Virus record (IMG/VR): IMGVR_UViG_3300032397_002854
Location: 1 to 21,620 of that record
Length of the DNA stretch: 21,620 bases
Origin: a virus
Reading direction: 5' to 3' (one strand)
The position numbers and the translations under genes were made by a program. The notes under the pieces were generated by a model that ran no database searches, was not told where the DNA came from, and saw nothing but the letters and a program-made list of their open reading frames with translations. Shown here one piece after another: positions 5,696 through 20,410 of this stretch. Within the stretch, counting starts at the first letter, position 1, and the number at the start of each line of letters is the position of its first letter.

Positions 5696-5700
5696 AATAC

Positions 5701-5784: not shown

Positions 5785-5804
5785 GTTTTTAGCAGTTTTA
5801 AAAT

Positions 5805-5969: not shown

Positions 5970-5975
5970 TTTTAT

Positions 5976-6050
5976 GGTCTCATAGCTCAATTAGGTCAGA
6001 GCAACGCCCTTTTAAGGCGTAGGTTCTCCGTTCGATCCGGAGTGGGATCA
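5976..6050 (+). tRNA. tRNA-Lys(UUU)
   Basis: Acceptor GGTCTCA/TGGGATC, anticodon loop CTTTTAA in ACGCC/GGCGT, T-arm CTCCG-TTCGATC-CGGAG. CCA not encoded (CGCA follows). Confidence 0.93.
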
Positions 6051-6060
6051 CGCAATATTT

Positions 6061-6329
6061 AAAAACTATCATCGGTGTGGAAAGGACACACTAGGAGAGT
6101 GAGTGAGGATACGGTTCACTACGACCAAGCGGAATTGACCGCTGCACGGGTCGCGTTTAAAGACGCATTAAATCCAAGTGCCGAACTGACCCAACAAGAT
6201 TCTCAAAACGTGAGTGGTGTTAGAAAATAGTAGGTTTACCGCTCTAAGGATCGGCGAATTAAGCTTCGCCTTCCGACATACGTAACGAAAGTCCCACAAG
6301 CAGGTATCAAGCCCTGCATGATAGTTTTT
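6061..6329 (+). ncRNA. Structured RNA, family 2, long member (269 nt)
   Basis: A 12-bp perfect closing stem AAAAACTATCAT/ATGATAGTTTTT, a CG joint, a 5' hairpin GTGTG-GAAAGGA-CACAC and a 3' hairpin GCAGG-TATCAAGC-CCTGC. The interior contains many clean stems: AGTGA/TCACT, CGACC/GGTCG around AGCGG/CCGCT, GCGT/ACGC, CTCA/TGAG and GGCGAA/TTCGCC. The frame is open nowhere. The complexity is ribozyme- or large-ncRNA-like. Confidence 0.8.
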
Positions 6330-6338
6330 ATTTTTTAC

Positions 6339-6413
6339 GCTCTGTTAGTTTAATGGACAGAATGCAGCTCTACGAAAGCTGAGATGGGGATTCGACTTCC
6401 TCACGGGGCGCCA
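6339..6413 (+). tRNA. tRNA-Arg(ACG)
   Basis: Acceptor GCTCTGT/ACGGGGC (two wobbles), anticodon loop CTACGAA in CAGCT/AGCTG, T-arm GGGGA-TTCGACT-TCCTC, CCA encoded. A34 would need TadA editing to inosine. Confidence 0.9.
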
Positions 6414-6466
6414 TACCCTCTTTAATATACTCATAAGACATACTACACTCTTCCCTAAATAAATAT

Positions 6467-6805
6467 ATGAAACGCCTGCTCTATCTGATGCTCGGATGGA
6501 TTCTGTTCGTCAACATCATCGACGCAGTTACGACCTATTACGCATTTCATAACCCCTTACCTATTGAAGAAGCAGGACTAATGCGAACTGCTGATGGGCG
6601 ATGTTCCGATCCAGTAATTGTTTTTCACTTTGTATTCAGTTTAGCAGTATTGATTCTGTCGTTTTGGATCGTTAAAAATCATTATGAAACTCAATGGAAA
6701 TCATTAGCATTTCGTGTATTTTTTATCGTTATGATTATTTGGATAATTCTTGATACGAGAGTCGCAATCAATAATATTTTGGTAATTCGACAAGCACTTT
6801 TATGA
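6467..6805 (+). CDS. Three-span membrane protein, DUF5658-like
   Basis: The 112-aa product has three hydrophobic segments (about 5-25, 50-70 and 84-105). NIIDAVTTYYAF followed by a proline-rich loop and EAGLMR resembles DUF5658 membrane proteins, which have N-x-x-D-A-x-x-T-Y and N-P-L-M-R. The match is from memory of the pattern and is tentative. No good ribosome site is seen before the ATG. The TGA stop overlaps the first two bases of tRNA-Lys(CUU). Confidence 0.7.
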   Translation: MKRLLYLMLGWILFVNIIDAVTTYYAFHNPLPIEEAGLMRTADGRCSDPVIVFHFVFSLAVLILSFWIVKNHYETQWKSLAFRVFFIVMIIWIILDTRVAINNILVIRQALL

Positions 6806-6879
6806 GACGTTAACTCAATAGGCAGAGTATCTGGCTCTTAACCAGAAAGCTGGGGGATCGTGGCCCTCACGTCTCACCA
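6804..6879 (+). tRNA. tRNA-Lys(CUU)
   Basis: Perfect acceptor GAGACGT/ACGTCTC, anticodon loop CTCTTAA in TCTGG/CCAGA, T-stem GGGGG/CCCTC with odd loop ATCGTGG, CCA encoded. Confidence 0.88.
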
Positions 6880-6880
6880 C

Positions 6881-6954
6881 GCCCGATTATTTTAATAGTA
6901 GAATCCCGGTTTTACACTCCGGAGGCGGTGGAGCATAACCATCATTGGGCACCA
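6881..6954 (+). tRNA. tRNA-Val(UAC)
   Basis: Acceptor GCCCGAT/ATTGGGC, anticodon loop TTTACAC in CCGGT/TCCGG (31-39 T-T), T-stem GGTGG/CCATC with loop AGCATAA (G55), weak D-stem, CCA encoded. Confidence 0.8.
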
Positions 6955-6967
6955 GCAATTTTTTTAC

Positions 6968-7061
6968 GGATAGGTTGACCTCAGTTGGCGCGAGGCCTAG
7001 TCTTGAAAACTAGTAATCCTCGAAAGGGGATATGGAGGTTCGATTCCTCTCCTATCCGCCA
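6968..7061 (+). tRNA. tRNA-Ser(UGA)
   Basis: Acceptor GGATAGG/CCTATCC, anticodon loop CTTGAAA in CTAGT/ACTAG, long variable arm, T-arm GGAGG-TTCGATT-CCTCT, CCA encoded. Confidence 0.93.
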
Positions 7062-7065
7062 TTAT

Positions 7066-7156
7066 GACAGGGTGGCAGAGTCTGGTTGATTGCGGCACCC
7101 CGCTAAGGTGTTAGACATCGTAAGGTGTCTCGAAAGTTCAAATCTTTCCCTTGTCG
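7066..7156 (+). tRNA. tRNA-Ser(GCU)
   Basis: Acceptor GACAGGG/CCTTGTC, anticodon loop CCGCTAA in GCACC/GGTGT (C33), variable arm AGACA/TGTCT, T-arm GAAAG-TTCAAAT-CTTTC. No CCA. Confidence 0.88.
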
Positions 7157-7164
7157 AATTTCTT

Positions 7165-7235
7165 GGCCCCATGTTGTAACGGATGCGAGTAACGCTTCGA
7201 ACGTTAAAGTCCGGGTTCGACTCCTGGTGGGGCTT
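7165..7235 (+). tRNA. tRNA-Arg(UCG)
   Basis: Acceptor GGCCCCA/TGGGGCT, anticodon loop CTTCGAA in TAACG/CGTTA, T-arm CCGGG-TTCGACT-CCTGG. No CCA; GCAATTTT linker follows. Confidence 0.9.
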
Positions 7236-7248
7236 CGCAATTTTAAAT

Positions 7249-7320
7249 GCCCGTATGTTGTAAAGGATAGCAAAAGGTGTTCCTAACGCCTAAGTTTGGG
7301 TTCAATTCCTAATACGGGTG
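7249..7320 (+). tRNA. tRNA-Arg(CCU)
   Basis: Acceptor GCCCGTA/TACGGGT, anticodon loop TTCCTAA in AGGTG/CGCCT, T-arm TTGGG-TTCAATT-CCTAA. No CCA. Confidence 0.9.
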
Positions 7321-7330
7321 CGAATATTAT

Positions 7331-7403
7331 GCCCCTATGGTGTAACGGATAAGCATACAAACCTTCTAAGTTTATGGTGAGGATTCGATTTCCTCTAGGG
7401 GCG
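7331..7403 (+). tRNA. tRNA-Arg(UCU)
   Basis: Acceptor GCCCCTA/TAGGGGC, anticodon loop CTTCTAA in CAAAC/GTTTA (outer pair mismatched), T-arm GAGGA-TTCGATT-TCCTC. No CCA. Confidence 0.9.
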
Positions 7404-7434
7404 CATTTATTTTAATAAAAATAAAAAAGTTAAA

Positions 7435-7478
7435 AGTTTATGTCTTAAAACACTAAATAATAGTAGGGGACATAAACT
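7435..7478 (+). promoter_or_regulatory. Ribosome-site-hiding hairpin of an HNH gene
   Basis: AGTTTATGTC (7435-7444) pairs perfectly with GACATAAACT (7469-7478), which abuts the ATG at 7479 and includes the end of the ribosome site AGGGGA. The loop contains the late-type motif, so only transcripts begun in the loop would lack the 5' arm. Confidence 0.7.
7447..7459 (+). promoter_or_regulatory. Late-promoter candidate AAAACnnTAAATA
   Basis: AAAACACTAAATA lies in the loop of the 7435-7478 hairpin. The 18 nt from 7447 are identical to those at 15301. Confidence 0.55.
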
Positions 7479-8183
7479 ATGAAAACAAAAAAAGAATACA
7501 GATATATCTCACAATGGGTTAAAAAAATTAAAGCAATTAATTTATTAGGTGGGAAATGTAAAAACTGTGGCGAATCTAGAATTTGGATATTAAATTTTCA
7601 CCATAAAAACCCAAACAAAAAAGAATTTGATATTAATAAATTAAGAAATTCTAGATGGTCTTTAATAGAAAAAGAAGTCAAAAAATGTATTTTGTTATGT
7701 AGAAATTGCCACGCTGAAATCCACAAAAAAAACAATAATAAATATCCAAGTCAAAAGAAAAATTTATTAGAAATTAAAAATATTTTTAAATGTGAAAAAT
7801 GTAATTATGAACAATATGAAGGGGCTTTAGATTTCCACCACGAAGATAGTAATGAAAAAAAATTCGAATTACACGGAATAAAAATATATGAAAATTCGTG
7901 TTTAGAGACAAAGAAAAAAATAATCGATGAAGTTAATAAATGCACAATCTTATGTTCTAATTGCCACGCTGATTTACATTTTGACAAAAAGAAATTCGAA
8001 ATTCATAAAAATGAACTTTATAATTGGAAATATAAAGAAACACCAAAAAAAATTGATAAAGAATTGGTAATTAAAATGTATAAAGAAGGAAAACGACAAA
8101 TAGATATCAGTAAAGAATTAAAATGTAGTAAAGCAACAATCTGTGTTATTATTAAATCAATAAAATTGCCAAATAAGCAATAG
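7479..8183 (+). CDS. HNH endonuclease with two HNH units and a C-terminal HTH
   Basis: The 234-aa product has two consecutive zinc-HNH units: CKNC..LNFHHKNPNKKEF..CILLCRNCHAEIH (about residues 26-88) and CEKC..LDFHHEDSNEKKF..CTILCSNCHADLH (about 106-168). A helix-turn-helix follows near 190-230 (YKEGKRQIDISKELKCSKATI). The duplication inside one chain is unusual; it may cut both strands or bind as a pseudo-dimer. The TAG stop overlaps the first two bases of tRNA-Gln. Strong AT bias marks it as a recent arrival in the tRNA array. Translation seems controlled by the hairpin just upstream. Confidence 0.85.
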   Translation: MKTKKEYRYISQWVKKIKAINLLGGKCKNCGESRIWILNFHHKNPNKKEFDINKLRNSRWSLIEKEVKKCILLCRNCHAEIHKKNNNKYPSQKKNLLEIKNIFKCEKCNYEQYEGALDFHHEDSNEKKFELHGIKIYENSCLETKKKIIDEVNKCTILCSNCHADLHFDKKKFEIHKNELYNWKYKETPKKIDKELVIKMYKEGKRQIDISKELKCSKATICVIIKSIKLPNKQ

Positions 8184-8256
8184 GGGATTAGTTTAACGGA
8201 AGAACATTCGGCCTTGAACCGAAAGGCGGTGGGTTCAACTCCCTCATCTCCTGCCA
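8182..8256 (+). tRNA. tRNA-Gln(UUG)
   Basis: Acceptor AGGGGAT/ATCTCCT, anticodon loop CCTTGAA in TTCGG/CCGAA (C33), T-loop TTCAACT with one T-T in the stem, CCA encoded. Confidence 0.88.
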
Positions 8257-8261
8257 ATAAT

Positions 8262-8336
8262 AGGGAAGTCATTCAAAGGCTAGGATACTAGACTCTGACT
8301 CTGGTTATCTCCGTTCAAATCGGAGCTTCCTTACCA
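8262..8336 (+). tRNA. tRNA-Gln(CUG)
   Basis: Acceptor AGGGAAG/CTTCCTT, anticodon loop CTCTGAC in CTAGA/TCTGG, T-arm CTCCG-TTCAAAT-CGGAG, CCA encoded. Confidence 0.9.
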
Positions 8337-8342
8337 AATATG

Positions 8343-8419
8343 GCGGCTGTAGCCCAGTGGCCCAAGGCGGTGCGCTGTGAACGCATTACTCACCAGTTCG
8401 AATCTGGTCAGTCGCCCCA
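8343..8419 (+). tRNA. tRNA-His(GUG)
   Basis: Acceptor GCGGCTG/CAGTCGC with G at -1 (8342) opposite C73, the His identity pair. Anticodon loop CTGTGAA in GTGCG/CGCAT, T-arm ACCAG-TTCGAAT-CTGGT, CCA encoded. Confidence 0.94.
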
Positions 8420-8422
8420 AAT

Positions 8423-8508
8423 GCAGGAATGGTGTAATGGTAGCCACGCCAGTCTTAGAAACTGGTTCTGAAAAACGAGTGGGGGTTCAAGTCCCTCTTC
8501 CTGCACCA
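8423..8508 (+). tRNA. tRNA-Leu(UAG)
   Basis: Acceptor GCAGGAA/TTCCTGC, anticodon loop CTTAGAA in CCAGT/ACTGG, long variable arm, T-loop TTCAAGT, CCA encoded. Confidence 0.93.
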
Positions 8509-8526
8509 GAATTTTATAACAACTTA

Positions 8527-8535
8527 TGGTATAAT
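8527..8535 (+). promoter_or_regulatory. Extended -10 promoter inside the tRNA array
   Basis: TGGTATAAT with no clear -35. Predicted start at about 8542, also the first base of a GTG codon. Confidence 0.7.
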
Positions 8536-8541
8536 ATAAGT

Positions 8542-8615
8542 GTGAATGAACGAGAAAATAAGGTGGTGGTAGATTTGTTTTCGAGAGGGCCCCGTCTGTG
8601 GGCCCTTTCTTTTTT
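8542..8615 (+). ncRNA. Candidate ~70-nt small RNA between promoter and terminator
   Basis: The segment runs from an extended -10 promoter to a strong terminator with no convincing gene. A short GTG frame starting at 8542 reads through the terminator into tRNA-Trp, so coding is doubtful. It may be a small RNA, or a leader whose terminator insulates tRNA-Trp. Confidence 0.5.
8586..8612 (+). terminator. Intrinsic terminator
   Basis: AGGGCCC pairs with GGGCCCT around CGTCTGT, then TTCTTTTTT. It ends transcripts arriving from the upstream tRNAs and from the 8527 promoter. Confidence 0.92.
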
Positions 8616-8621
8616 CGAGAA

Positions 8622-8696
8622 GGGTCAGTCCGTTAATGGCTAAACGGTTGGTCTCCAAAACCAATCCTGCACGTTCGACCCGTGCCTGGCCCGCCA
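8622..8696 (+). tRNA. tRNA-Trp(CCA)
   Basis: Acceptor GGGTCAG/CTGGCCC, D-stem CGTT/AACG, anticodon loop CTCCAAA in TTGGT/ACCAA, T-arm GCACG-TTCGACC-CGTGC, CCA encoded. It lies 7 nt after the T-run of a terminator, so it may depend on read-through. Confidence 0.94.
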
Positions 8697-8950
8697 TTCA
8701 CATTAATCTCTTAAACAATAAAAAATCTTTCTGTCAGGGTATTGAATTTAATACCGACAAATGGCGACTTTATCATCTTTTAACCCCGCAAGAAGTTGAT
8801 TTTCAAATAGCATATACTTGTGCAAATTGCTGGATTATTAATCATTTATGCCCGTGTGGTAATCTGTTTCATCCGGAAATATTATCAAAATATATGCTCG
8901 TCCGATTAAAAAAGTATCGATGGAAAAATGAAAATAAATCTTCTCAATAA
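8696..8950 (+). CDS. Cys-rich small protein, first of a tandem pair, start unclear
   Basis: About 84 aa. INLLNNKKSFCQGIEFNTDK and the following WRLY match the start of the next gene almost exactly. Where the next gene has ATG AAA, this copy has ATT CAC, and the ATT shares its first base with the CCA of tRNA-Trp. It therefore either uses an AUU start, starts at an ATG inside the tRNA (8636), or is a decaying copy. Cys pairs (CANC, CPC) suggest metal binding. The C-terminus extends past the second gene's start in another frame. Confidence 0.5.
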   Translation: MHINLLNNKKSFCQGIEFNTDKWRLYHLLTPQEVDFQIAYTCANCWIINHLCPCGNLFHPEILSKYMLVRLKKYRWKNENKSSQ

Positions 8951-9167
8951 TAAAAAATCTTTCTGTCGAGGTATTGAATTCAATACCGACAAATGGCGAC
9001 TCTATTATATTTTAAATAGTGAAAAAGTTGCTAATGAAATGGCGCTAAAATGTGTTAAGTGTTGGGATCATAACCCTTCAATAGCATATCGATGTGGTAA
9101 ATATTTTGTACCAGGCGCAATAACGAATTATATGTTAAATAACTTAAAAAAATACAAATGGAAATAA
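8928..9167 (+). CDS. Cys-rich small protein, second of a tandem pair
   Basis: The 79-aa product starts MKINLLNNKKSFCRGIEF and is clearly paralogous to the preceding frame; the nucleotide identity is highest over the first ~30 codons. CVKC and a lone later Cys may bind metal. It starts inside the 3' end of the first copy, which suggests coupling. It ends 1 nt before tRNA-Leu(CAA). No family recognised. Confidence 0.7.
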   Translation: MKINLLNNKKSFCRGIEFNTDKWRLYYILNSEKVANEMALKCVKCWDHNPSIAYRCGKYFVPGAITNYMLNNLKKYKWK

Positions 9168-9168
9168 T

Positions 9169-9255
9169 GCGGGGATGGCTGGAATGGCAGACGCGCCAGT
9201 TTCAAAAATTGGTTCTGGAAACAGAGTGAGGGTTCAAGTCCCTCTTCCCGCACCA
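9169..9255 (+). tRNA. tRNA-Leu(CAA)
   Basis: Acceptor GCGGGGA/TTCCCGC, anticodon loop TTCAAAA in CCAGT/ATTGG, long variable arm, T-loop TTCAAGT, CCA encoded. Strongly similar to tRNA-Leu(UAG) at 8423, so a duplicate with a changed anticodon. Confidence 0.93.
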
Positions 9256-9311: not shown

Positions 9312-9539
9312 ATGAAAAAAATGATAAGAGTTGAACAAATGTTTTTTGAATTTCTCCAAAAAACTCTTTATAAATACGTTTCTACGGAAAAGCTGAAAGC
9401 ATCAAAATTCTTGAGTTGGTTAGGAATGGCTATTGTGGCACGTGGCCTACGTTTGGAAGCTGCTATTTATCCCGACGAAATCTCTATTGAAAGCGTCAAT
9501 TCTCTTATTATTGAACTTAAACAAATTATTAAAAACTAA
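9312..9539 (+). CDS. Small protein, 75 aa, unknown
   Basis: MKKMIRVEQM begins a mostly helical, amphipathic sequence with a central WLGMAIVARG segment that may be a weak membrane or interface helix. No family recognised. There is no ribosome site; the ATG sits at the predicted transcription start, so the mRNA is likely leaderless. It converges on, and overlaps by 4 nt, the last minus-strand gene of the head operon. Confidence 0.7.
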   Translation: MKKMIRVEQMFFEFLQKTLYKYVSTEKLKASKFLSWLGMAIVARGLRLEAAIYPDEISIESVNSLIIELKQIIKN

Positions 9540-10078
9540 AATTTCGCCAAACCTGTTTTTTGGTTTTTAATATAATCTATTAAAGCAGTAATTGTGGGTT
9601 CGATTTTAAGACCAATAAGAAATTGTTTATATTGTCTTAATAAAGCCCTGTCGTCCAAATAAGTTAATTTACCGATCCCCACTTCATCAAGTTTAAATAA
9701 TTTCATTACTTTATCTTTAAATTCTGGAAATTTTTCAATTAATGAACCAAGCATTCTGCTTTCAAGCAATTCTTCTTTACATTCCCGCAAAAATTCGATT
9801 TCTTCTCTGGTACCGTATTTTAAAATGTCTTCCCAGTAAGTCCCGCCCAATGCGCCTTTAACTTTTTTCATACCCACCGCTTTGTATGCCTCGTCTTTCC
9901 AATTTCTATTTTTTGTTGCCATTCTGGTTTTTCTCCTTGCTGCACATTCCGGACAATCGGGATTCTCTTTCATGTGTCGATGTCCCTCATTTGTCCAATC
10001 ATCTCGCCTTCCACCCCTCGATGGCGGCACAGTTCCCGTAATTTCCATCATGTGATCGATCCAACCCTTTTTGGTCAT
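9536..10078 (-). CDS. Protein downstream of the terminase, unknown
   Basis: The 180-aa product has a CPEC pair near residue 42, a basic stretch (RRKTRMATKNRNWKDEAYK) and a helical C-terminal half. I do not recognise it. The ribosome site AGGAGA lies before the ATG. It is last in the leftward head operon and also has its own late-type motif at 10095-10107. A role in packaging or head assembly is inferred from position only. Confidence 0.75.
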   Translation of the reverse strand: MTKKGWIDHMMEITGTVPPSRGGRRDDWTNEGHRHMKENPDCPECAARRKTRMATKNRNWKDEAYKAVGMKKVKGALGGTYWEDILKYGTREEIEFLRECKEELLESRMLGSLIEKFPEFKDKVMKLFKLDEVGIGKLTYLDDRALLRQYKQFLIGLKIEPTITALIDYIKNQKTGLAKF

Positions 10079-10094: not shown

Positions 10095-10107
10095 TATTTA
10101 TCGTTTT
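10095..10107 (-). promoter_or_regulatory. Late-promoter candidate AAAACnnTAAATA
   Basis: On the minus strand this reads AAAACGATAAATA. It overlaps the terminase stop codon and precedes the 180-aa gene. Confidence 0.45.
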
Positions 10108-12017
10108 CGCCAAACCTGACTTGCCGATCTCCACAAAGAAGTCATATCACCCATATCCTTCGCAGTTACCTCATCGTATTTAAGAGGCACTTCATTATCA
10201 CTTCGTAATTCTTCCATATTATCCCGCTCCATCTGTCTGCGGAATGCCTCACGCGGGGTTCTATTCGCATTCGCTCCCAGAATCGCATCCAAATACTGAC
10301 GTTCGCGACTCATGCCCAATTCGAGCAACGGCGTGATCGTCATAACGTCTTTAATTCTGTCGCGGTCGGAAAGCATCCACGTCGAGAATTTCAGCGCAGT
10401 CACCAAATCGAAATGACTGACTCCCTGATATTGTCTGTGTGCTAATACCTCTTTCCCCTTGCGATCTTCGAACAAACGCATTTCTTCGAGTAAAAATTCA
10501 TCACAAACCGACACCATGCCTTTGTCAATAACAGTTTTAAGGTTATTTTTAAGGTCTATAGCGTTCTTTCTGTCGGTTCGGAAGCCCCACGGCACATAGG
10601 CGCGTTTCTTTGCTCCGCCTAATGACCTATAGACGCGCCTGGTGAGGTAAGATACCATCATTTCGTTATTTCCAGAGAATTTATCGACTAATATTTGCTT
10701 GAAAAAGTCATTTTTCTTGGAAAACTCGCCTGAAGAAATCTCACCAAGCAGATTTTCGAATCGTAATGAAAAGATGCGGCCGACATCGTTAATCTCAAAA
10801 ATCAAAAACCATTTATCATTCAATTGCGTGATTAAAAAGTTAAACAAGAAGTCGAATAAGTCGTCCGCAAGTGTTCCTGCGTGCATCCATTGAAATGCCT
10901 GACGAGTTACAAACGTATCCAGATCGCCTGCAATCTTTTTCTTTCGCACTGACAAGCCGACGACGGTGGAGAAATTCAGCCATTTGCCTTCGGACACATC
11001 GACACCGACGAGAAAAGTCTGGTCGCCAACTTGGTCGTAAATTCTCATCGGTTCGCCCGCGTAATCAGTATGCGGAACCCATTCGAACATCGGCGCAACC
11101 GGATGAAGTCTTGCCAACGTATCCTGGTTAAAAAAGCGACTGACGCCCGCCTGAATTTCGAACGAATTGTCGAATTCCTGCGCGAATCGTTCTGCACCGT
11201 TCTTGCCACCAACGGAAAGATCACGAATAGTCTGTTCTTTCCATCTGTCGTCTCTGCCTTTGCCTCTGGGGTCGACATCCTTCCAATGAATTTTTTCCAA
11301 AATCCATTTCGGATCGTAGAGCGGATTTTCTTCGCCGTCGATTTCCTTCTGTGTTTTGCGATACAAATCATAGAACAAATCCTTCCCGTTCGGCGTTGAT
11401 GATACCATCAGGCCGCCGTCCATCGACTGCATGATCGGGTAGTTACTCGTCCAGAATTCCGATTGTAATTCAGGCGTTGGAAGCCACGCGAATTCGTCCA
11501 AATACAATAGGGTCAACGATTCCGACCGTAAGCCTGATTTGGACGTTGCGGCACAAAATACGATTGTGCCGTCTTCCAATTCCAACTCGAATTTACTGTC
11601 GCTGATTGACGCAGAAAGGCGGAACATCTTCGGCAACTTTTCATACATTCCCGAAAAGCGGCGGAATATCTTTCTTGCGTTATCTTTCTTGTTTGCGAGA
11701 ATACCGACGTTTGACGATGAGGTGAACGTAATCAGCCAAAGAATAAAAACCATAACCAGCGTAGTTTTCGATGACTGTCTGGGTGACAATAACACTATAT
11801 ATTTTTTGCGCCAATGATCCTGCAATTCCTTCAAAATCTTTTTCTGTTTCGGGTAGATAACGTCTGCAAAATTCAACCACCCTCTTCCAGGTTCGGGATT
11901 GAATATCTGGACATACTTGATAAATTCAAGAATATTTTCGGAGCACTTCTTAAATATCTCCAGTTCGTCGGTGGTCAACGTGGGCAAGGACTGACGAATA
12001 ACTGGTTGAATGGGCAT
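10098..12017 (-). CDS. Terminase large subunit (T4 gp17-like)
   Basis: The 639-aa ATPase-nuclease drives DNA into the prohead and cuts the genome. The ATPase part shows Walker A SPRQSSKTT (78-86), Walker B TLLYLDEFA (169-177) and the coupling motif SSTPNG (206-211). The RNase H-like nuclease has acidic residues at D340 (VGVDVSEG), E408 (FEIND) and D537 (HFDLVTALKF). The Walker A has Ser where nearly all homologues have the Gly before the catalytic Lys. The length matches T4-type enzymes. The ATG is 2 nt after the stop of the metalloprotease gene. Confidence 0.96.
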   Translation of the reverse strand: MPIQPVIRQSLPTLTTDELEIFKKCSENILEFIKYVQIFNPEPGRGWLNFADVIYPKQKKILKELQDHWRKKYIVLLSPRQSSKTTLVMVFILWLITFTSSSNVGILANKKDNARKIFRRFSGMYEKLPKMFRLSASISDSKFELELEDGTIVFCAATSKSGLRSESLTLLYLDEFAWLPTPELQSEFWTSNYPIMQSMDGGLMVSSTPNGKDLFYDLYRKTQKEIDGEENPLYDPKWILEKIHWKDVDPRGKGRDDRWKEQTIRDLSVGGKNGAERFAQEFDNSFEIQAGVSRFFNQDTLARLHPVAPMFEWVPHTDYAGEPMRIYDQVGDQTFLVGVDVSEGKWLNFSTVVGLSVRKKKIAGDLDTFVTRQAFQWMHAGTLADDLFDFLFNFLITQLNDKWFLIFEINDVGRIFSLRFENLLGEISSGEFSKKNDFFKQILVDKFSGNNEMMVSYLTRRVYRSLGGAKKRAYVPWGFRTDRKNAIDLKNNLKTVIDKGMVSVCDEFLLEEMRLFEDRKGKEVLAHRQYQGVSHFDLVTALKFSTWMLSDRDRIKDVMTITPLLELGMSRERQYLDAILGANANRTPREAFRRQMERDNMEELRSDNEVPLKYDEVTAKDMGDMTSLWRSASQVWRKR

Positions 12018-12019
12018 TT

Positions 12020-12745
12020 TTAATCCTTTTGTTTTGCTATCGCTTTTTCGAATTTATCTTTCATCAACACATAAAATCCATAAAGTCGGCGATGAAAATG
12101 TTTTTTATTTTTTTCATTTAAATCACTATAAAAAGACCCTTGTTTCATAAATGGACGTAAAAAATTTAAAAAAGCCGAAAATGATCCAAAAATTAATTTT
12201 TTATATTTGTCCTTTTCTCCGATTAATGTTTTTACGTTTTCACGAAAAAACTGTTCAAAATCGTGTGTCAATTCTTGATAATAAGCGTTGCTCTCCGACG
12301 GAGTATTGACATAATCTTCCATCCTGCCTGCTTTTTGAAGACTAACGGTGTTTTCATCATATTTCAAGGTATATCGCTTTTTATCCAAATAATGAATAAA
12401 TTCGTGCACAAAACTCTTTTCCAGTGTGCTGTTTTTAAAAATATCCTCCTTCATTTTCATTTCCGGCATTAAACAATAAACAACGATGACATATTTATCT
12501 TTTTTATTATGATAATGTCCGAATGAGGCAGTAACCCCATTGGCTGAATCTTGTTTTCTTGCTAAAAGCAAATCCAAATCGTTATATTTTTTATTAACGT
12601 ATTCCAATGACAATATTAATGTAGTGCGGCCTTCCGTAATAGTCCATAAAGAATCTGGTAATTTTCCTGCTTTTTTCCAGACATTGGCCGCCTCGATTCT
12701 TCGAGCGTGGTCTTTTTCTGCGTCTTCTATTATTTTAAATTTCAT
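12020..12745 (-). CDS. Zinc metalloprotease with MKFKIIE head tag
   Basis: The 241-aa product has the zincin motif HEFIH (114-118) in SFVHEFIHYLD, with a candidate third ligand E151 (PSESNAYYQE). The start MKFKIIE|D matches the T4 prohead-protease site (I/L-x-E) and is shared with four neighbours, so it may be carried in the head and injected. The C-terminal half is helical and basic. The ATG overlaps the stop of the coiled-coil gene (ATGA). Being directly before the terminase suggests late expression. A host-takeover or cell-wall role is only inference. Confidence 0.75.
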   Translation of the reverse strand: MKFKIIEDAEKDHARRIEAANVWKKAGKLPDSLWTITEGRTTLILSLEYVNKKYNDLDLLLARKQDSANGVTASFGHYHNKKDKYVIVVYCLMPEMKMKEDIFKNSTLEKSFVHEFIHYLDKKRYTLKYDENTVSLQKAGRMEDYVNTPSESNAYYQELTHDFEQFFRENVKTLIGEKDKYKKLIFGSFSAFLNFLRPFMKQGSFYSDLNEKNKKHFHRRLYGFYVLMKDKFEKAIAKQKD

Positions 12746-13080
12746 CCCTTCTTTCCGCCCTCAACCATTCGTAGGATTGCGTCCTTCGATCCTTTGATGC
12801 CTTCGGGCGTAGCGCCCTGTGATTGCGCATCGTCCAATTCAAGCAACGTATTGATTTCGTTCTCAATTTCATTTCTGGTTTTTAATAGGTCGTTAAGTCT
12901 TGACAAAAGCGACGCAATACCAGCAATATGCTTACCATCGACTTTTGCTTCGTTCGCTTCGTAGAGTTCGCCATAATGCTTCGTGGTGATTTCGTATAGC
13001 TTCGTCGTTTGATCGAGAGTCGTTTCGATATCTCTCAACGTTCTCTTTTTTTCAGCAATCTTTTCTTCGACACTTTTCAT
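12742..13080 (-). CDS. Coiled-coil protein, candidate small terminase
   Basis: The 112-aa product is almost all heptad-rich helix (about residues 3-88), then a short QSQGATPEG linker. Its place between the neck protein and the large terminase matches T4 gp16, which has a central coiled coil and forms a ring on DNA. No sequence signature proves this. Both ends use ATGA overlaps, so it is translationally coupled with its neighbours. Unlike them it lacks the MKFKxxE start. Confidence 0.6.
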   Translation of the reverse strand: MKSVEEKIAEKKRTLRDIETTLDQTTKLYEITTKHYGELYEANEAKVDGKHIAGIASLLSRLNDLLKTRNEIENEINTLLELDDAQSQGATPEGIKGSKDAILRMVEGGKKG

Positions 13081-13541
13081 TTAGACATCCTTTTTAAAAA
13101 TTCTTTTGGTTCGTAAAAACTGTCTTGATAATAAACAAAAATTATTTTTGTTTCATTTGCATTTTTTATATATGCGTGAATATCATCAAAATCGACATAA
13201 TCGCCCAATGGACTGATTCCCAAAACCACACCTTCTTCTCCAGCATAATCAAGAGCACTATTAAAATCACTTGTAACATTTACTCCGTTGGAAACACTCT
13301 CTACGGAGCCGTCATACCACGGAACGGTATTTTTAATCCAATCTTCAATTTCTTCTTCCTGCATATCGAAGTATTCATCACCAATCGCGTATTCGACAAT
13401 CGTAGGGTCTATTGGCATTTGTTCTGTTTTGGCGGAAGGTTGTAATCCATTGGGAATAGCCGAAATTGCTTCTCCTATGGTTACTCCTCTATAATATTCG
13501 GCGGAGGAATCGTCCAATCCTTCTTTTATTACGAATTTCAT
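13077..13541 (-). CDS. Possible ADP-ribosyltransferase-like head protein (MKFVIKE tag)
   Basis: The 154-aa product starts MKFVIKE|G, fitting I-x-E prohead cleavage. EYYRGV (R18), then GLQPS, then VNVTSDFNSALDYA (89-100) and a terminal FYEPKEF (E144/E147) resemble the order R, S-T-S, E of R-S-E ADP-ribosyltransferases. The final E-x-E is not exact, so the fold is a suggestion. T4 packs a comparable enzyme (Alt) in its head. The ribosome site is weak; the ATG is 2 nt after the preceding stop, so coupling is likely. Confidence 0.6.
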   Translation of the reverse strand: MKFVIKEGLDDSSAEYYRGVTIGEAISAIPNGLQPSAKTEQMPIDPTIVEYAIGDEYFDMQEEEIEDWIKNTVPWYDGSVESVSNGVNVTSDFNSALDYAGEEGVVLGISPLGDYVDFDDIHAYIKNANETKIIFVYYQDSFYEPKEFLKRMSK

Positions 13542-13543
13542 TT

Positions 13544-13855
13544 TTATGCGGTTTTCAAGGATTCCTTATCATCCTCTTTTTCTTCGTCGTCTTCTTTCTC
13601 TTCGTCGTCTTTTTCTTCGTCGTCCTTTTCGCCCTCTTTCGGCTGATCCCCACTCTCCATCTTTTTCAATTTTGTATAGTATTCTACGTCTTCCCCCAAA
13701 TGATCGAGCGCAATTCGGATCACGGAAATAGGACAGTTATCCATTGAGTCTGCGTGTTCTCGCTCCACTTCGAATCCTTGTTTCAGGACTTCCCAGAATT
13801 TCTCTTCCGACTCAAAAGAACCTTTTAAATCGCCTTCCAATAGTTTAAATTTCAT
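13544..13855 (-). CDS. DUF5661-like protein with acidic repeat tail and MKFKLLE tag
   Basis: The 103-aa product begins MKFKLLE|G. The central part, E-x-E-H-A-D then IALDHLGEDVEYYTKLKKME, resembles DUF5661, small proteins of phages with A-x-DHL-x-E-x-x-x-YY-x-x-L. The last ~30 residues are a charged low-complexity run of DDEEK/EDDEE units encoded by imperfect 15-bp repeats. The start was placed at the MKFKLLE Met, which has AGGAG upstream; an upstream in-frame ATG overlaps the previous gene. Confidence 0.72.
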   Translation of the reverse strand: MKFKLLEGDLKGSFESEEKFWEVLKQGFEVEREHADSMDNCPISVIRIALDHLGEDVEYYTKLKKMESGDQPKEGEKDDEEKDDEEKEDDEEKEDDKESLKTA

Positions 13856-13865
13856 TCTATTTCTC

Positions 13866-14105
13866 CTATCGAGTAAATTTCCAATCATCGGAAGATTCGT
13901 TCCAATGATTTAATAATTTATCCAATTCATCGGCATGGTGAACATATATCGAATGCGTCCCTTTTTTTCCTGATGGCACGTGAAACCAATTATAAACAAA
14001 ATGCATCCAGCCACCATCATATAATTCATCTTGAAGAACAGGGGGAGTCATATAATCTACGCCTGCTTCGTGATAAACATTACTTTCTGTAATTTTAAAT
14101 TTCAT
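13866..14105 (-). CDS. Small head-operon protein with MKFKITE tag
   Basis: The 79-aa product starts MKFKITE|S. The rest is Trp/His/Tyr-rich with an HFVYNWFHVPSG hairpin-like core; no family recognised. The start at 14105 overlaps the upstream stop (ATGA) and has GGAGG upstream. The shared tag with four neighbours suggests it is an internal head protein. Confidence 0.7.
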   Translation of the reverse strand: MKFKITESNVYHEAGVDYMTPPVLQDELYDGGWMHFVYNWFHVPSGKKGTHSIYVHHADELDKLLNHWNESSDDWKFTR

Positions 14106-14536
14106 TGAAATATTTCCTCCCCGAATTCCGCGTCCCAATCTGTCAATTTTTGCGTTATGTCCGTTGTGATGGGAACAGTTTTATCTATTTCCTCTGGCAT
14201 CACTCTGCCTATTTTTTTCAGCCAGTCGCCCTTCTTGCTCGCCTGAGACATCGGATCATTTTCGTCTATTTCCCAATCGCTTGACTTTTTAAAACGCAGG
14301 ACTGATATTTTTCCTGTGCCAATATTTTTATTAAAATCCCAATCCATTCTTGCCGCCCATCTGATCGCATCTTTAAGATCGGTGAATGCGTAAACTTCGC
14401 CCTGGCCGTATCTGTCGCCGCCACCCTTCACCCAGTTGCTCGTTTGCATCGGCAGCAAACCTTTCTTTTGAATTAATGGTACTTTATCAGTATGCGTAAC
14501 GTGATAGAGATAGTTTTCAAGAAGTTTAAATTTCAT
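14102..14536 (-). CDS. ADP-ribosyltransferase-fold candidate with MKFKLLE tag
   Basis: The 144-aa product starts MKFKLLE|N. LYHVTHTDKVPLIQKKGLLP (H12) followed by GEVYAFTDLKDAIRWA (Y49) and VMPEEI (E115/E116) matches the H-Y-E pattern of small ADP-ribosyltransferase/KptA-like folds. That makes it a possible counterpart of the T4 head enzyme Alt, but I cannot confirm the fold. It is coupled at both ends by ATGA overlaps, after the neck gene and before the MKFKITE gene. Confidence 0.68.
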   Translation of the reverse strand: MKFKLLENYLYHVTHTDKVPLIQKKGLLPMQTSNWVKGGGDRYGQGEVYAFTDLKDAIRWAARMDWDFNKNIGTGKISVLRFKKSSDWEIDENDPMSQASKKGDWLKKIGRVMPEEIDKTVPITTDITQKLTDWDAEFGEEIFQ

Positions 14537-15276
14537 ACAATAAACCCCTTAAATATTTTTGAAAAAATTTCCCACGAAAGAAAAGCGAATGGGAGCCACG
14601 CATAGTTACCAAATGGATTTTCACCAGGTTTATACGTATGCAATTCCTCGCACTTCGCCTCGATCCCCGCAACAACTTGTCCGGGCTGAGGATCACCAAT
14701 CCAACCCGAAGCGCCGCCCTGTTCAACTGCTTCAGCAATCTCATCAGGCGCCCAACCTGGTTCCGTAACATCATTCGTAACATCGGCATCAGCGCTGTCC
14801 TCGCGCCACGTCTTAGCGGTCATTTTCCACGTCAATTTATTGCCCCAAAAATTTGCATCACTATCAACCACATTAACCACTTCGAACATCAATTTAACGT
14901 GCTCGATATAAAACAAATCGCCAATTCTTGGCATCGCAACTTTGGTAATCTCCGTCCAATATGTTTTTTCGATGATTAAATTGACTTCATCGAGAATTTG
15001 GATGCCGTATCTCTGGTTTTCGATCATTTCTTCAAGATACTGGAATACTGCTTTGATCGGGATAGGGCGGCACCATTTCTTATCTGCTTTTTCCAAGAAA
15101 ACCGGATCCATTCCAGCGTTCGGGTCTTGCAAACGATACCAATTTACAAAGAGTCCGCCGACTTTATTATATTCTTGCAAAAAGCTTATTACAGTTGCAG
15201 TATCGGTATTTTCCTCTTGATGAAAATAATCGAGGTCGAGAGGACGCTCTGTATCAATGGTTTGATCTTCTGCCAT
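14533..15276 (-). CDS. Candidate neck protein (T4 gp14-like)
   Basis: The 247-aa product has the order YGIQILDEVNLIIEKTYW...MPRIGDLFYIEHVKLMFEVVNV, which resembles T4 gp14 head-completion/neck proteins (a PRIGD-like motif followed by an F-E-V strand). Gene order agrees: neck, small terminase, large terminase. It is the first gene of the leftward head operon; a late-type motif lies 6 nt before the ATG. Identity is moderate, based on pattern and synteny. Confidence 0.6.
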   Translation of the reverse strand: MAEDQTIDTERPLDLDYFHQEENTDTATVISFLQEYNKVGGLFVNWYRLQDPNAGMDPVFLEKADKKWCRPIPIKAVFQYLEEMIENQRYGIQILDEVNLIIEKTYWTEITKVAMPRIGDLFYIEHVKLMFEVVNVVDSDANFWGNKLTWKMTAKTWREDSADADVTNDVTEPGWAPDEIAEAVEQGGASGWIGDPQPGQVVAGIEAKCEELHTYKPGENPFGNYAWLPFAFLSWEIFSKIFKGFIV

Positions 15277-15341: not shown

Positions 15342-15392
15342 TTTGAAAAGCCAACCCTTTTCAAATTACCTACCTAATTTAAACTTGGTTGG
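15342..15392 (+). promoter_or_regulatory. Leader hairpin/pseudoknot of HNH gene
   Basis: TTTGAAAAG/CTTTTCAAA is a perfect 9-bp stem whose 6-nt loop CCAACC is fully complementary to GGTTGG at 15387-15392, directly before the GGGG ribosome site. This would hide the ribosome site in a pseudoknot. Confidence 0.55.
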
Positions 15393-15402
15393 GGGTTTTA
15401 AA

Positions 15403-15930
15403 ATGGCAAAGAAAATGGGGTATACAGAGGAAGAAAGAAAAGAAGCAAAAAGCAAGAGAGATAAAAAAAACTACATAAATTGCCGAGAAGAAAAACTCAA
15501 ATGTGTGAAAAAATATTATCAAAATCATAAAAAAGAAAGACTCGAATATGCTAAAGAATATCAAAAAAATCATCAAAAAGAAATAAACGAATATAAAAGG
15601 GAATACGCTAATAATAGATTAAAAACTGATATTAATTTTAAACTCATTAATTATTTGCGCAGTAGATTATACAAAGCTATTAAAAATAATCAGAAAGTAG
15701 GTTCGGCAGTCAAAGATGCGGGTTGCTCCGTCCTTGAATTAAAAACACACTTAGAAAAACAATTTCAACTAGGAATGTCTTGGGACAATTATGGAAAATG
15801 GCATATTGACCACATCATTCCGTTATCAAAGTTTAATCTTGGGAATAGAGAAGAAATTTTAGTAGCCTGTCATTATACCAATCTCCAACCGTTATGGGCA
15901 GAAGAGAATTTAAGCAAAGGTAATAAATAA
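15403..15930 (+). CDS. HNH homing endonuclease
   Basis: The 175-aa product has a basic helical N-terminus with repeats of the type N-H-x-K-E-x-x-E-Y (about 30-75) and a C-terminal HNH motif: WHIDHIIPLSKFNL, CHYTNLQPLWAEENLSKG (about 134-173). The start at 15403 has GGGGG 7 nt upstream; longer forms would begin inside the leader hairpin. It interrupts two minus-strand structural units, and its stop abuts the end of the opposing 71-aa gene. Confidence 0.85.
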   Translation: MAKKMGYTEEERKEAKSKRDKKNYINCREEKLKCVKKYYQNHKKERLEYAKEYQKNHQKEINEYKREYANNRLKTDINFKLINYLRSRLYKAIKNNQKVGSAVKDAGCSVLELKTHLEKQFQLGMSWDNYGKWHIDHIIPLSKFNLGNREEILVACHYTNLQPLWAEENLSKGNK

Positions 15931-16537: not shown

Positions 16538-17428
16538 TTATTTATTTCTCCTATTGTTTTGTATTAAATCTTCTAAATCTGTTCTTATCAATTCCAATTC
16601 TTTATCCAAAATTTCTAATTCTTTATTTTTTATTATACCAAGTTCAATTTCGGCCTGTTTGCGCTCGGTGATGTCCTGACTAATGGTTTGAAACTGCTGA
16701 ACACCATTCCAAAGAATTGCCTTGCGGAAAACTTGAAGATAGCGAATTTCGCCATTTTTCCTGACAATTTCAATTCCATATTCACTTGGCCCAAAACCTC
16801 CTAAATTTCTGGTTTCTTTTCTATGTTTGAATTCGGCATAACTTTTAGGAGTATAGCGTTTGTAAGTCGGCACTTTATTCAGTTCCGTAATATCGTCGTA
16901 TCCATAGAAATAAAGAAATTGGCGATTCGCATAAAGAGTCTCATCATCTTCGGTCAAAATACGAACGCCCAATGGAGATTCATCTAACGAACGATGAAAA
17001 TTCTCTTCCATTCTACGTAGCGTCGCTTCCGCTTCAGCATGTTTATTCCGCAAACTCTGTTTTTCTAACGCATTCATGACTGCTTCGCCCAGTCGAGCCA
17101 GTCGGTCTTTCAGCAAATAGTCATCTGCCCCCTGCTTCATACATTCGACTGCAACTTCTTCGCTGACTGCGCCGGTGACGATGATAAACAGAATCTTGGG
17201 AATTTTTTCCCTAATCAAATCGAGCGCTTGCAAAGCATCAAAATTCGGCAGTTTGAAATCGGCCAGAATCAAATTGGGTTTGAATAATTCCAGCGCTTTA
17301 ATGAAACTTTCGCCGTCGTCCGCCCTCTCACTTGTAAAAATGATACCAGCTTTACGAAGTTCACGTTCCATTAACTCGGCATCGCTGGGCACGTCTTCCA
17401 GTAATAAAATGCGCAAGGGTTCAACCAT
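16538..17428 (-). CDS. Response regulator receiver-PAS protein
   Basis: The 296-aa product has an intact receiver domain (about 5-120): acidic pocket E11/D12, phospho-acceptor D57 (LILADFKLP), T85 (VTG) and K107 (LLKDR). A coiled linker (125-142) leads to a PAS domain (about 143-260) with the PAC ending DITERKQAE, then a terminal coiled coil. There is no kinase or DNA-binding output. It probably modulates host two-component signalling or forms part of a host-state sensor. Such a protein in a phage structural region is unusual; the sequence resembles bacterial proteins, suggesting acquisition from a host. Confidence 0.93.
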   Translation of the reverse strand: MVEPLRILLLEDVPSDAELMERELRKAGIIFTSERADDGESFIKALELFKPNLILADFKLPNFDALQALDLIREKIPKILFIIVTGAVSEEVAVECMKQGADDYLLKDRLARLGEAVMNALEKQSLRNKHAEAEATLRRMEENFHRSLDESPLGVRILTEDDETLYANRQFLYFYGYDDITELNKVPTYKRYTPKSYAEFKHRKETRNLGGFGPSEYGIEIVRKNGEIRYLQVFRKAILWNGVQQFQTISQDITERKQAEIELGIIKNKELEILDKELELIRTDLEDLIQNNRRNK

Positions 17429-18234: not shown

Positions 18235-18984
18235 ATGAAAAAACTATTTTTAAGTTTGGTTATTTTAGGAACGATGTTGGCGTCAGGTTGTGCGATCATG
18301 CCCGCGCAGGCACAGACGACCCCCGACGAAACCGAATACGCATATACTGATGACTATACGAGCGTCGACTGGGCGAACGCTGAAATGGACATCATGTATT
18401 CGTATTATGATTTTTCCAATTTGTTCCTGGTGGTTTATGGTGGTCGCATCTTCATTATGCCGTATGATTATTTTTATGGTAATCTCTACAATCGTTATTC
18501 ATTGCGCATGCATTGGTATTCATACGATTATTTTTCCGCATGGTGGGGAACCAACTATTATAACAGACTTTGGAGCAATTATTATTATCGGCACAATCGC
18601 GGGAATTGGCGTGGCGACAGGGATTGGTATCGCGATCACAAACGCTTCAACAGTAATCGTGATTTCCACATTCGTCGAAATGGATTGCGCAATCCGTATT
18701 ATCCACGGCTGAGAAACAAGACTGATCCTGCGCCATTGCCCAATCGGCGATATCAGGCAAAACCTCGCAGCTATACACCTCGCAGTTATACACCACGGTC
18801 TTATACGCCTCGCAGTTATACACCTCGCAGTTATACACCACGCAGTTATACACCACGCAGTTATACACCTCGCAGTTATACACCTCGCTCATTCGGTGGC
18901 AGTAGTGGTGGTTATCACGCAACCCCACGTTCATTCGGCGGCAATTCAGGCGGTGGGCACGGCGGAGCACGGAAAAAAGACTAA
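18235..18984 (+). CDS. Tyr-rich lipoprotein with RSYTP repeats
   Basis: The 249-aa product has a lipobox ending in Cys19 (LASGC), an acidic segment, then a Tyr/Trp/Arg-rich region (about 55-165), a run of pentapeptide RSYTP units (about 178-218) and a Gly/Ser/His-rich tail. GGAGG lies 6 nt before ATG. The cell-surface location and aromatic low-complexity sequence suggest a surface matrix or binding role. It might have come from a host gene. No known domain. Confidence 0.85.
   Translation: MKKLFLSLVILGTMLASGCAIMPAQAQTTPDETEYAYTDDYTSVDWANAEMDIMYSYYDFSNLFLVVYGGRIFIMPYDYFYGNLYNRYSLRMHWYSYDYFSAWWGTNYYNRLWSNYYYRHNRGNWRGDRDWYRDHKRFNSNRDFHIRRNGLRNPYYPRLRNKTDPAPLPNRRYQAKPRSYTPRSYTPRSYTPRSYTPRSYTPRSYTPRSYTPRSYTPRSFGGSSGGYHATPRSFGGNSGGGHGGARKKD
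18768..18892 (+). repeat. 15-bp tandem repeat encoding RSYTP
   Basis: About eight copies of CGCAGTTATACACCT with third-position variants (CAC/CGC, CCT/CCA, one TCT). In-frame units mean copy number can change without frameshift. It is coding DNA, not a CRISPR: there are no spacers. Confidence 0.9.
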
Positions 18985-19523: not shown

Positions 19524-19787
19524 ATGGAAAGAAAAAGTATCGAAAAACCGCTTTTTGGTCGAATTCCCGATTACGGAATTACCAAAACAGGGGATTTCCG
19601 CTACAAAATCTTCAATTTTTCTCGAAAATCGACCTATATTGTCGAAAAGAAGGATAAATTCTTCGCTCGATCAAGAAAAACACACAAAATCTGGCAATGC
19701 ACCTGTCCGAGCTACCAAAAATGGGCTTGGAAAACGCACTCTTGTAAGCATATCGATATGTTATTCGAAATTAAAGTATTAAAATGA
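19524..19787 (+). CDS. SWIM zinc-finger protein, 87 aa
   Basis: The C-terminal half shows CTC-x12-CKH (C59, C61, C74, H76) within WQCTCPSYQKW and SCKHIDML, the SWIM zinc-finger pattern CxCx(n)CxH. SWIM domains bind DNA or protein. The N-terminal half (RYKIFNFSRKSTYIVEKKDKFF) is a beta-rich part typical before SWIM. No ribosome site; leaderless start predicted. Its stop overlaps the start of the first MTRKEIDKIKL gene. Confidence 0.82.
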   Translation: MERKSIEKPLFGRIPDYGITKTGDFRYKIFNFSRKSTYIVEKKDKFFARSRKTHKIWQCTCPSYQKWAWKTHSCKHIDMLFEIKVLK

Positions 19788-19990
19788 CTAGAAAAGAAAT
19801 TGACAAAATCAAATTGATCTCAAAATTGGGTGGGATTTTACCTGATAAATATTATTTAACAAATATGTGTTATTTATGCAAATATATTAATAAAATAAAT
19901 GGTGCGTGCCGTAATTACCATAAAGAAATAATTGACGTGAAGCATGAATATAGTTCTACCTGCAGATTTTGTTTATCGCATGAGTTGTAA
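19784..19990 (+). CDS. MTRKEIDKIKL family, copy 1 (68 aa)
   Basis: First of four tandem paralogues. The start MTRKEIDKIKL is identical in copies 1-3. It has CYLC, a central Cys and RFCLSH near the end, predicting a small zinc-binding fold. ATGA overlap with the SWIM gene. Function unknown. Confidence 0.78.
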   Translation: MTRKEIDKIKLISKLGGILPDKYYLTNMCYLCKYINKINGACRNYHKEIIDVKHEYSSTCRFCLSHEL

Positions 19991-19991
19991 A

Positions 19992-20201
19992 ATGACCAGA
20001 AAAGAAATTGATAAAATCAAATTGATGGCGAAATTGGGATGCACCTTCGACCAAAAAATAATCGACAAGAATAGATGCAAAAAATGCACCCATAACAAGA
20101 CTTGCCCGAATCCTGATTGGGGACAGGAAACTGTGATCCGTTTAAAAGTAAAAAATGGATACACACCAGCCCTTTTTTGTTTTAAATTTGAGAAAAAATG
20201 A
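19992..20201 (+). CDS. MTRKEIDKIKL family, copy 2 (69 aa)
   Basis: Starts MTRKEIDKIKLMAKLG; CKKC, a central CPNP and LFCFKFEKK at the end. The ATG is 1 nt after the previous stop; a longer in-frame start inside copy 1 was rejected because the paralogues fix the N-terminus. The final His of the family is Phe here. Confidence 0.78.
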   Translation: MTRKEIDKIKLMAKLGCTFDQKIIDKNRCKKCTHNKTCPNPDWGQETVIRLKVKNGYTPALFCFKFEKK

Positions 20202-20410
20202 CCAGAAAAGAAATTGATAAAATTAAGTTAATCTTGATATTAAATCGAGAACTCCCAAATGAATATCTTGACAAAAATCACTGCAAAACTTGTTCTCATT
20301 ATTATCCTGGCAAATGTGCTGTTAAATGGACTAGTCGAATGCTTATGGATATTGAATTTGAAGGATGTGGAAAAAATAGATTTTGTTTTTCCCACGACGA
20401 AAAAAAATGA
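20198..20410 (+). CDS. MTRKEIDKIKL family, copy 3 (70 aa)
   Basis: Starts MTRKEIDKIKLILIL; CKTC, GKC and NRFCFSH. Joined to copy 2 by an ATGA overlap. Same predicted metal-binding layout. Confidence 0.78.
   Translation: MTRKEIDKIKLILILNRELPNEYLDKNHCKTCSHYYPGKCAVKWTSRMLMDIEFEGCGKNRFCFSHDEKK

Follow-up and report, generated by a model that had tools for sequence, protein, structure and literature searches.

A short N-terminal tag on five proteins of a phage head operon as a predicted T4-type capsid-targeting propeptide

The tagged genes of the head operon

We analysed the viral DNA of IMG/VR record IMGVR_UViG_3300032397_002854, hereafter the window, which is the complete record of 21,620 bp, the record itself being a genome fragment. 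Pfam and phrog profile matches place a T4-type head and packaging operon on its minus strand, and five proteins of this operon begin with a common seven-residue tag fitting MKF(K/V)[IL]xE, a candidate capsid-targeting sequence (CTS). The operon runs from a gp14-like neck gene through genes starting MKFKLLE, MKFKITE, MKFKLLE and MKFVIKE, an untagged gene resembling a small terminase gene (TerS-like) and a gene starting MKFKIIE to the gene of a T4-type large terminase (TerL). The features are the following.

14533..15276, minus strand: T4 gp14-like neck or head closure protein (Hc2), untagged (phrog_679, 2.2e-10; T4_neck-protein, 0.0014)
14102..14536, minus strand: tagged cargo 1, 144 amino acids, MKFKLLE followed by 'NYLYHVTHT...'; an unrelated phage, L232, has a homologue of 49-50% identity that aligns from residue 10
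14516..14536, minus strand: tag 1, ATGAAATTTAAACTTCTTGAA (MKFKLLE), predicted capsid-targeting propeptide
13866..14105, minus strand: tagged cargo 2, 79 amino acids, MKFKITE; ATG at 14105, Shine-Dalgarno sequence ggaggaaa
14085..14105, minus strand: tag 2, ATGAAATTTAAAATTACAGAA (MKFKITE)
13544..13855, minus strand: tagged cargo 3, MKFKLLE with DUF5661 (PF18905) and an acidic C-terminal tail; ATG at 13855
13835..13855, minus strand: tag 3, ATGAAATTTAAACTATTGGAA (MKFKLLE); residues as in tag 1, codons different
13077..13541, minus strand: tagged cargo 4, 154 amino acids, MKFVIKE
13521..13541, minus strand: tag 4, ATGAAATTCGTAATAAAAGAA (MKFVIKE)
12742..13080, minus strand: untagged coiled-coil gene starting MKSVEEK, TerS-like by position, between the fourth and fifth tagged genes
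12020..12745, minus strand: tagged cargo 5, MKFKIIE with an HExxH protein (HEFIHYLD), predicted zinc metalloprotease; motif conserved in homologues
12725..12745, minus strand: tag 5, ATGAAATTTAAAATAATAGAA (MKFKIIE)
10098..12017, minus strand: T4-type large terminase, untagged (Terminase_6N, 1.8e-9; phrog_2, 1.6e-31)
9536..10078, minus strand: gene downstream of TerL with a second repeated motif, EDILKYGTREEIEFLRE

An earlier, sequence-only reading had described five different, adjacent proteins with a common MKF(K/V)xxE start that ends in (L/I)-x-E at residue 7. All five N-termini are indeed present in the minus-strand sequence, and [LI]xE closes at residue 7 in five out of five. The passengers (79-241 amino acids) have no detected similarity to each other, and each is a single small protein rather than part of a large fusion polypeptide that also carries head domains or other effector domains. 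The genes belong to one operon, but they are not strictly adjacent, since the TerS-like gene at 12742-13080 separates the fourth from the fifth.

The same reading had listed an HEXXH metalloprotease and two proteins resembling ADP-ribosyltransferases (ARTs) among the passengers. The HExxH motif is real: M1, K2, F3, E7 and HEFIHYLD are invariant in four homologues of 27-56% identity, and gp462 of the cultured jumbo phage SCTP-2 has HELTH. No known peptidase family was matched by the protein at 12020-12745 in Pfam, NCBIfam or, in any meaningful way, among PDB sequences. The two ART-like assignments found no support: neither 13077-13541 nor 14102-14536 gave a Pfam or NCBIfam match above noise, and no homologue was found for the former. 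BLASTP of 14102-14536 against the ART-PolyVal-like protein of a relative gave E 0.18, and the ART-PolyVal match itself, just below cut-off, is confined to the tagged protein of the relatives G001 and G002. For cargo 2 (13866-14105) homologue comparison and Pfam/NCBIfam searches returned neither a homologue nor a family, whereas cargo 3 matches DUF5661 (E 2.5e-12, residues 22-67) and has tagged homologues in L004, L005, L006, G001 and G002.

Tagged genes in relatives and conservation of the tag

TerL and the HExxH protein, used as queries, led to the relatives L004, L005, L006 and two long contigs, G001 of 168.8 kb and G002 of 223.0 kb. Their TerL proteins are 63-79% identical to that of the window, with about 75% identity for the two long contigs. 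Genome-contig scans found no relatives, and an IMG/VR pattern scan with the tag DNA alone was uninformative, with a single match per stretch among the matches listed. A search for more MKFKxxE proteins had been proposed, and the relatives do carry tagged genes. These lie at the same neck-to-terminase location, but the gene set differs. L004 has a DUF5661 protein (MKFKIAE) and two paralogues (MKFKLLE, MKFKILE). L006 has an HExxH protein, a DUF6876 protein (MKFNLSE; PF21781, 1.8e-22), a DUF5661 protein (MKFKIFE) and a protein starting MKFKIME, and further downstream a tagged run of three YRG-family proteins, a related MKFKILE protein of 267 amino acids and a zeta/kinase protein (MKFKIAE; Zeta_toxin match 3e-8). 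In G002 extra tagged genes at 135-141 kb encode an RNA ligase (MKLTIIE; RNA_lig_T4_1, 2e-24), proteins starting MKFQIVE and MKFKIAE, and an ART-PolyVal-like protein (MKFRIVE; 9e-7, just under the Pfam cut-off). At least five genes are tagged in the window and at least nine in relatives, predicted enzymes among them. The tag always precedes the conserved domain, which starts at residue 22 in the DUF5661 and DUF6876 proteins, 16 in the zeta/kinase protein, 69 in the RNA ligase and 28 in the ART-PolyVal protein. The TerS-like coiled-coil gene is kept in all relatives, and neither it nor TerL is tagged in any of them.

The YRG family (phrog_11975) comes from L006, is absent from the window and looked ART-like by eye. 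AlphaFold2 gave a mean predicted local distance difference test (pLDDT) of 38 with three L006 sequences and of 87.9 with 13 sequences. A Foldseek comparison of this model with the PDB returned no match at E<=0.001 and no solved ART; the ART label was dropped because nothing fell below 1e-3.

In G002, 10 of the 378 predicted N-termini carry the strict motif, and in G001 4 of 289 do, compared with means of 0.13 and 0.03 after shuffling of the N-terminal columns. Inside G002 proteins it is found once in 62,197 positions. Because a motif chosen after the fact was to be avoided, we also counted the position of [LI]xE in every predicted protein, without selection. A single sharp peak was obtained at residue 7 in G002 (15 against a background of 3.8), G001 (13 against 2.7) and the window (5 against 0.35). 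In cultured jumbo phages the peak lies at residue 8 (Atu_ph07, 26 against 9.7; SCTP-2, 16 against 4.7), and in six other contig pieces with M[RK][LF]xxY[IL]xE arrays it lies at residue 9 (32 against 1.6; the P value of 1e-30 is overstated because some of the six pieces are related).

The tag is real, modular and kept by selection at the protein level. Synonymous codons vary across the tags (CTT, CTA, TTA, TTG and CTC for Leu, three codons for Ile), and variability jumps from residue 8. E7 is present in 37 of the 37 listed tags, a count that is partly circular because the motif was used to choose most rows. F3 is found in 34 of them, and a second aromatic residue is absent. The only common feature of the DNA upstream is a Shine-Dalgarno-like purine run. 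Moreover, in an AlphaFold2 model of one YRG-family cargo protein of L006 (mean pLDDT 87.9) residues 1-6 form the sole segment below 50.

Candidate prohead protease sites and lineage-specific tags

An S77 prohead protease of the T4 gp21 type, whose presence had been proposed as a check on the targeting idea, is encoded in both long relatives above the Pfam cut-off (PF03420, E 2e-26), and the window, being a fragment, stops short of this cluster. The protease also occurs in four cultured jumbo phages, Atu_ph07 and SCTP-2 included. Searches of G009 and of the fragments that contain L241, L242, L243, L249, L258 and L314 gave no S77 protease, a result of little weight for fragments. In G001 and G002 it adjoins the portal, a scaffold candidate and a gp23-type major capsid protein (MCP). 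The MCP contains SLRE|ST at residue 49, plausibly the end of a propeptide, and few [LI]xE sites elsewhere, and the scaffold candidate has 16-18 such sites compared with about 8 by shuffling. The protease itself starts with MSKQVLME|T, which resembles the LIE-9 site carried by T4 gp21 (PMC9026906). In the cargo bodies [LI]xE is slightly depleted (20 vs 27.6 shuffled), while it is enriched in other genes (1236 vs 1111). From these patterns in MCP, scaffold, protease and cargo bodies we therefore infer that the protease has the specificity which the tags display.

The tag is also exchanged between lineages. HExxH homologues start with MKFKIIE, MKFRVME or MKFTVVE, and the SCTP-2 homologue with MKLEQLFE. 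In Atu_ph07 about 11 consecutive proteins begin, nearly all, with M[KR]W[EHQDN]xL[TNI]E, and several of them are homologous to L006 cargo; the kinase domain, fused to a tagged protein in this phage, is encoded by itself in L006, where the gene bears a tag of its own. DUF5661 proteins of other phages start with MKFYEYLNE, MSFQEYLSE or MKLKNFLTE and lie within M[RK][FL]xxY[IL]xE gene arrays, and the YRG-family and kinase genes in L241-L244 start with MRLNEFISE, MRLGGFIDE, MRLQQYITE and similar sequences. In T4 itself ipII and ipIII start with MKTYQEFIAE, which ends at residue 10, and as a control the pattern of this internal protein tag matched ipI, ipII, ipIII and one hypothetical gene, 61.1. 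The product of the latter (NC_000866, 18966-19130) starts with MKTFKEFIKE and could be an internal head protein that has so far escaped notice. Homologous predicted cargo bears each phage lineage's own tag, and the tag lengths of 7, 8, 9 and 10 residues look like a single design whose length varies with the lineage. The tag goes together with a protease of the family expected for such a cut, and the further substrates predicted for that protease show the same motif; on homologous putative cargo other lineages use other tags.

The homologue of cargo 1 in L232 is 50% identical and aligns only from residue 10. Its own N-terminus, MNLQTTISIHAGGAGSGC, is common to seven other genes of that phage, and its GTG start was deduced from this common tag. 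On the 124,954-bp contig of L232 eight different genes between 98 and 116 kb have an N-terminus loosely described by MNL[EQ]TTISIxAGGPGSGC, a tag-like system of independent character. Neither an S77, an S78 nor an XkdF-type protease was found on this contig.

A second repeated motif, KLTxEDIxKYGTxEEIxxLxE, was observed in several small head-cluster proteins and in the gene downstream of TerL. It occurs in the window at 9536-10078, in G002 at 103666, 103987, 104757, 108569, 109366, 109794 and 158309, in G001 at five places, and at L004:3914 and L129:2859. LxE closes this motif too, and it could be a propeptide of greater length or a motif that binds the core.

Several other features of the window were recorded. 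Near the junction of neck and cargo genes different small endonuclease-like genes are inserted in the window (15343-15930) and in L005 (676-1356). Beside the head operon the window encodes a response-regulator and PAS protein (16538-17428), where G001 and G002 carry a large open reading frame (ORF; MFQSLFEYSNNG...) instead. The region 1722-9255 contains 29 tRNA genes interspersed with HNH-like endonuclease ORFs (463, 3349, 7479), and tandem paralogues bearing INLLNNKKSFC(Q/R)GIEFNTDKWRLY are located at 8636-9167. Besides, four small Cys-rich paralogues with starts MTRK(E/Q)IDKIKL stand in tandem at 19784-20631, and a lipoprotein-like ORF at 18235-18984 contains a 15-bp repeat (PRSYT), present 8.5 times at 18762-18888.

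A proposed capsid-targeting propeptide, its alternatives and its meaning

We propose, with a probability of about 0.84, that MKF(K)[IL]xE acts as a short capsid-targeting propeptide of the T4 type on head-packaged and probably injected proteins, for which both cleavage and packaging are predicted. The N-terminal residues would bind the prohead core, so that any protein bearing the tag would be built into the prohead. The S77 prohead protease would then cut after residue 7 at [LI]xE and release the cargo. By analogy with T4 Alt and the internal proteins, the cargo would leave the head with the DNA and act in the new host before phage gene expression. The gp21-type propeptide idea of the sequence-only reading is well supported indirectly, but its points on a short tag and on strict adjacency fell away, and that on ARTs found no support. 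The tag is not unusually short: the propeptide removed from T4 Alt has 6 residues, with the cut at ITE-6 (PMC5694885), or 7 (PMC9026906), and 7 residues lie within the range of about 6-20 residues of T4-type CTSs (PMC5694885, PMC9026906).

Similar systems have been described. The CTS of T4 IPI-IPIII (Mullaney and Black 1996, reviewed in PMC9026906) is likewise a short N-terminal peptide on otherwise unrelated proteins of a T4-type phage, with a gp21-type end site and an S77 protease, which in our case is found in the relatives. In contrast, the window tag has 7 residues rather than 10 (MKTYQEFIAE) and one aromatic residue rather than two, its processing is predicted, and it stands on at least five genes (at least nine in relatives), predicted enzymes included. 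T4 Alt also has a very short propeptide (6 residues, ITE-6, PMC5694885) and is a packaged, injected enzyme that modifies host RNA polymerase, its propeptide being given as 6-7 residues (PMC9026906). However, Alt is a single ADP-ribosyltransferase and its propeptide is not known on several neighbours. Inner-body or ejection proteins of phiKZ and SPN3US (gp53/gp54, PMC5694885) share identical N-termini on diverged packaged proteins and are cut there by the prohead protease, but their propeptides mostly comprise 79-130 residues and are cut at AxE or SxE, whereas the window tag is short with [LI]xE. The P1 DarB signal is also N-terminal and brings a reporter as well as an anti-restriction protein into the head (PMC9024508); it differs in its length, between 9 and 30 residues, and in the phage type. 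Polyvalent proteins and MuF-ART fusions likewise contain ARTs and further conflict domains that are predicted to be packaged in the head (PMC9503650). In their case packaging is deduced from fusion or neighbourhood, in ours from a short tag that is separable and borne by genes standing alone.

Other explanations were weighed. MK- starts and acidic residues are common, and the tags might be due to chance or gene calling, but a 30-100 fold enrichment over shuffles, the one internal copy in 62,197 positions in G002 and position-peak P values <= 1e-5 leave this a vanishingly small probability; enrichment and peaks ruled it out. The shared 5' ends could also reflect a nucleic-acid feature, either an element of translation initiation or a module by which recombination shuffles genes, as the tags have the start ATGAAATTTAAA in common and AT-rich early codons are frequent in phage genes. 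We regard this as hardly credible, since residues are kept while synonymous codons differ, E7 is invariant, upstream only the purine run is shared, and other lineages have other residues with the same end motif. The translation-element version was rejected on the codon variation in the tags and the [LI]xE position peaks.

Short N-terminal addresses are conceivable for other phage destinations, such as an intracellular compartment made by the phage or the tail. Such an address is very improbable here, because the end motif of the tag agrees with the site of the prohead protease and with that of the MCP in the same genomes, and the related T4 tags mark the annotated internal virion proteins ipI, ipII and ipIII, with 61.1 as one further match of the pattern. 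Unlikely, with a chance that still deserves attention, is that the tag targets the prohead core while its bearers are core or structural parts, or are packaged and not injected, some tags never being cut. The tagged protein at G002:104316 sits in the head cluster close to portal and protease, unprocessed head proteins are known in giant phages (PMC5694885), and DUF5661 is very common in phages. Yet most cargo with a known domain is enzyme-like (zeta-like kinase, RNA ligase, HExxH, ART-PolyVal), and cargo turnover between relatives is fast, unlike that of structural parts.

Several points weigh against the capsid-targeting reading, in addition to the circularity of the E7 count. This phage and its close relatives are known from sequence, and the window, a 21.6-kb fragment, lacks a protease and capsid genes of its own. 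In the 10-residue T4 IPIII signal residues 4 and 7 target and residues 8 and 10 are required for cutting (PMC9026906), and the position-7 aromatic has no counterpart in MKFKIxE, although this is a finding on IPIII that is not known to characterise every sequence of the class. Near-tags without E occur at L127:11921 (MMKFKIRD) and L005:1445 (MKFKIPKQ). In 121Q/phAPEC6 the [LI]xE position peak is weak (14 against 5.8), and the published virion list of phAPEC6 includes only about three of the ten or so proteins with a loose tag, namely MRFRDLTE, MKYNQLQE and MKKKLNE, mapped on 121Q by mass and order, so that this list lends the tag model weak backing. In favour of the reading, 29 proteins encoded by coding sequences (CDS) 31-76 of Atu_ph07 were detected in virions by mass spectrometry (PMC6102473), a figure for this cluster as a whole. 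The tagged run, AUZ94865-94875, corresponds to gp53-gp63 and lies within it (numbering by count from the first CDS, AUZ94813; gp31 = AUZ94843). The near-tags of L127 and L005 are possibly targeting but uncut, as with Asp at the cut position in T4 IPIII. RCC1-like virion proteins of phAPEC6/121Q were set aside, as they have MLPFARMVKYGNIAP in common and not an LxE tag.

CTSs as such are already known, and it has been suggested that they let T4-like phages package varied proteins (PMC9026906). New here would be the lineage-specific tags read from genomes, the tag replacement and the tag arrays: our literature search found no paper on lineage-specific tags read from genomes, on tag replacement on shared cargo or on these arrays, and whole-text searches found none naming DUF5661. 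Short lineage-specific N-terminal addresses might even be a general code of large tailed phages for a swappable, head-packaged and injected set, in which cargo is re-tagged on arrival after moving, an idea to which we give somewhat less than an even chance. There are perhaps two tiers here, a 7-residue cargo tag and the about 20-residue KLTxEDIxKYGTxEEIxxLxE on head-cluster proteins, besides the independent MNL[EQ]TTISIxAGGPGSGC tag in a phage where no S77, S78 or XkdF protease was found.

The proteins that a phage co-injects are usually known only after virion proteomics, and nearly all uncultured phages are blank in this respect. Should the tag be a head address, sequence would suffice to read off which proteins are likely injected: one would find the N-terminal [LI]xE peak of a lineage and list the genes forming it. 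In these phages this would predict a preloaded set of RNA ligase, zeta-like kinase, DUF6876, HExxH and DUF5661 proteins, several of them plausible against host defence. Moreover, the tags would supply short portable targeting peptides, and the old suggestion that CTSs serve the packaging of varied proteins by T4-like phages (PMC9026906) would become a genome-wide test.

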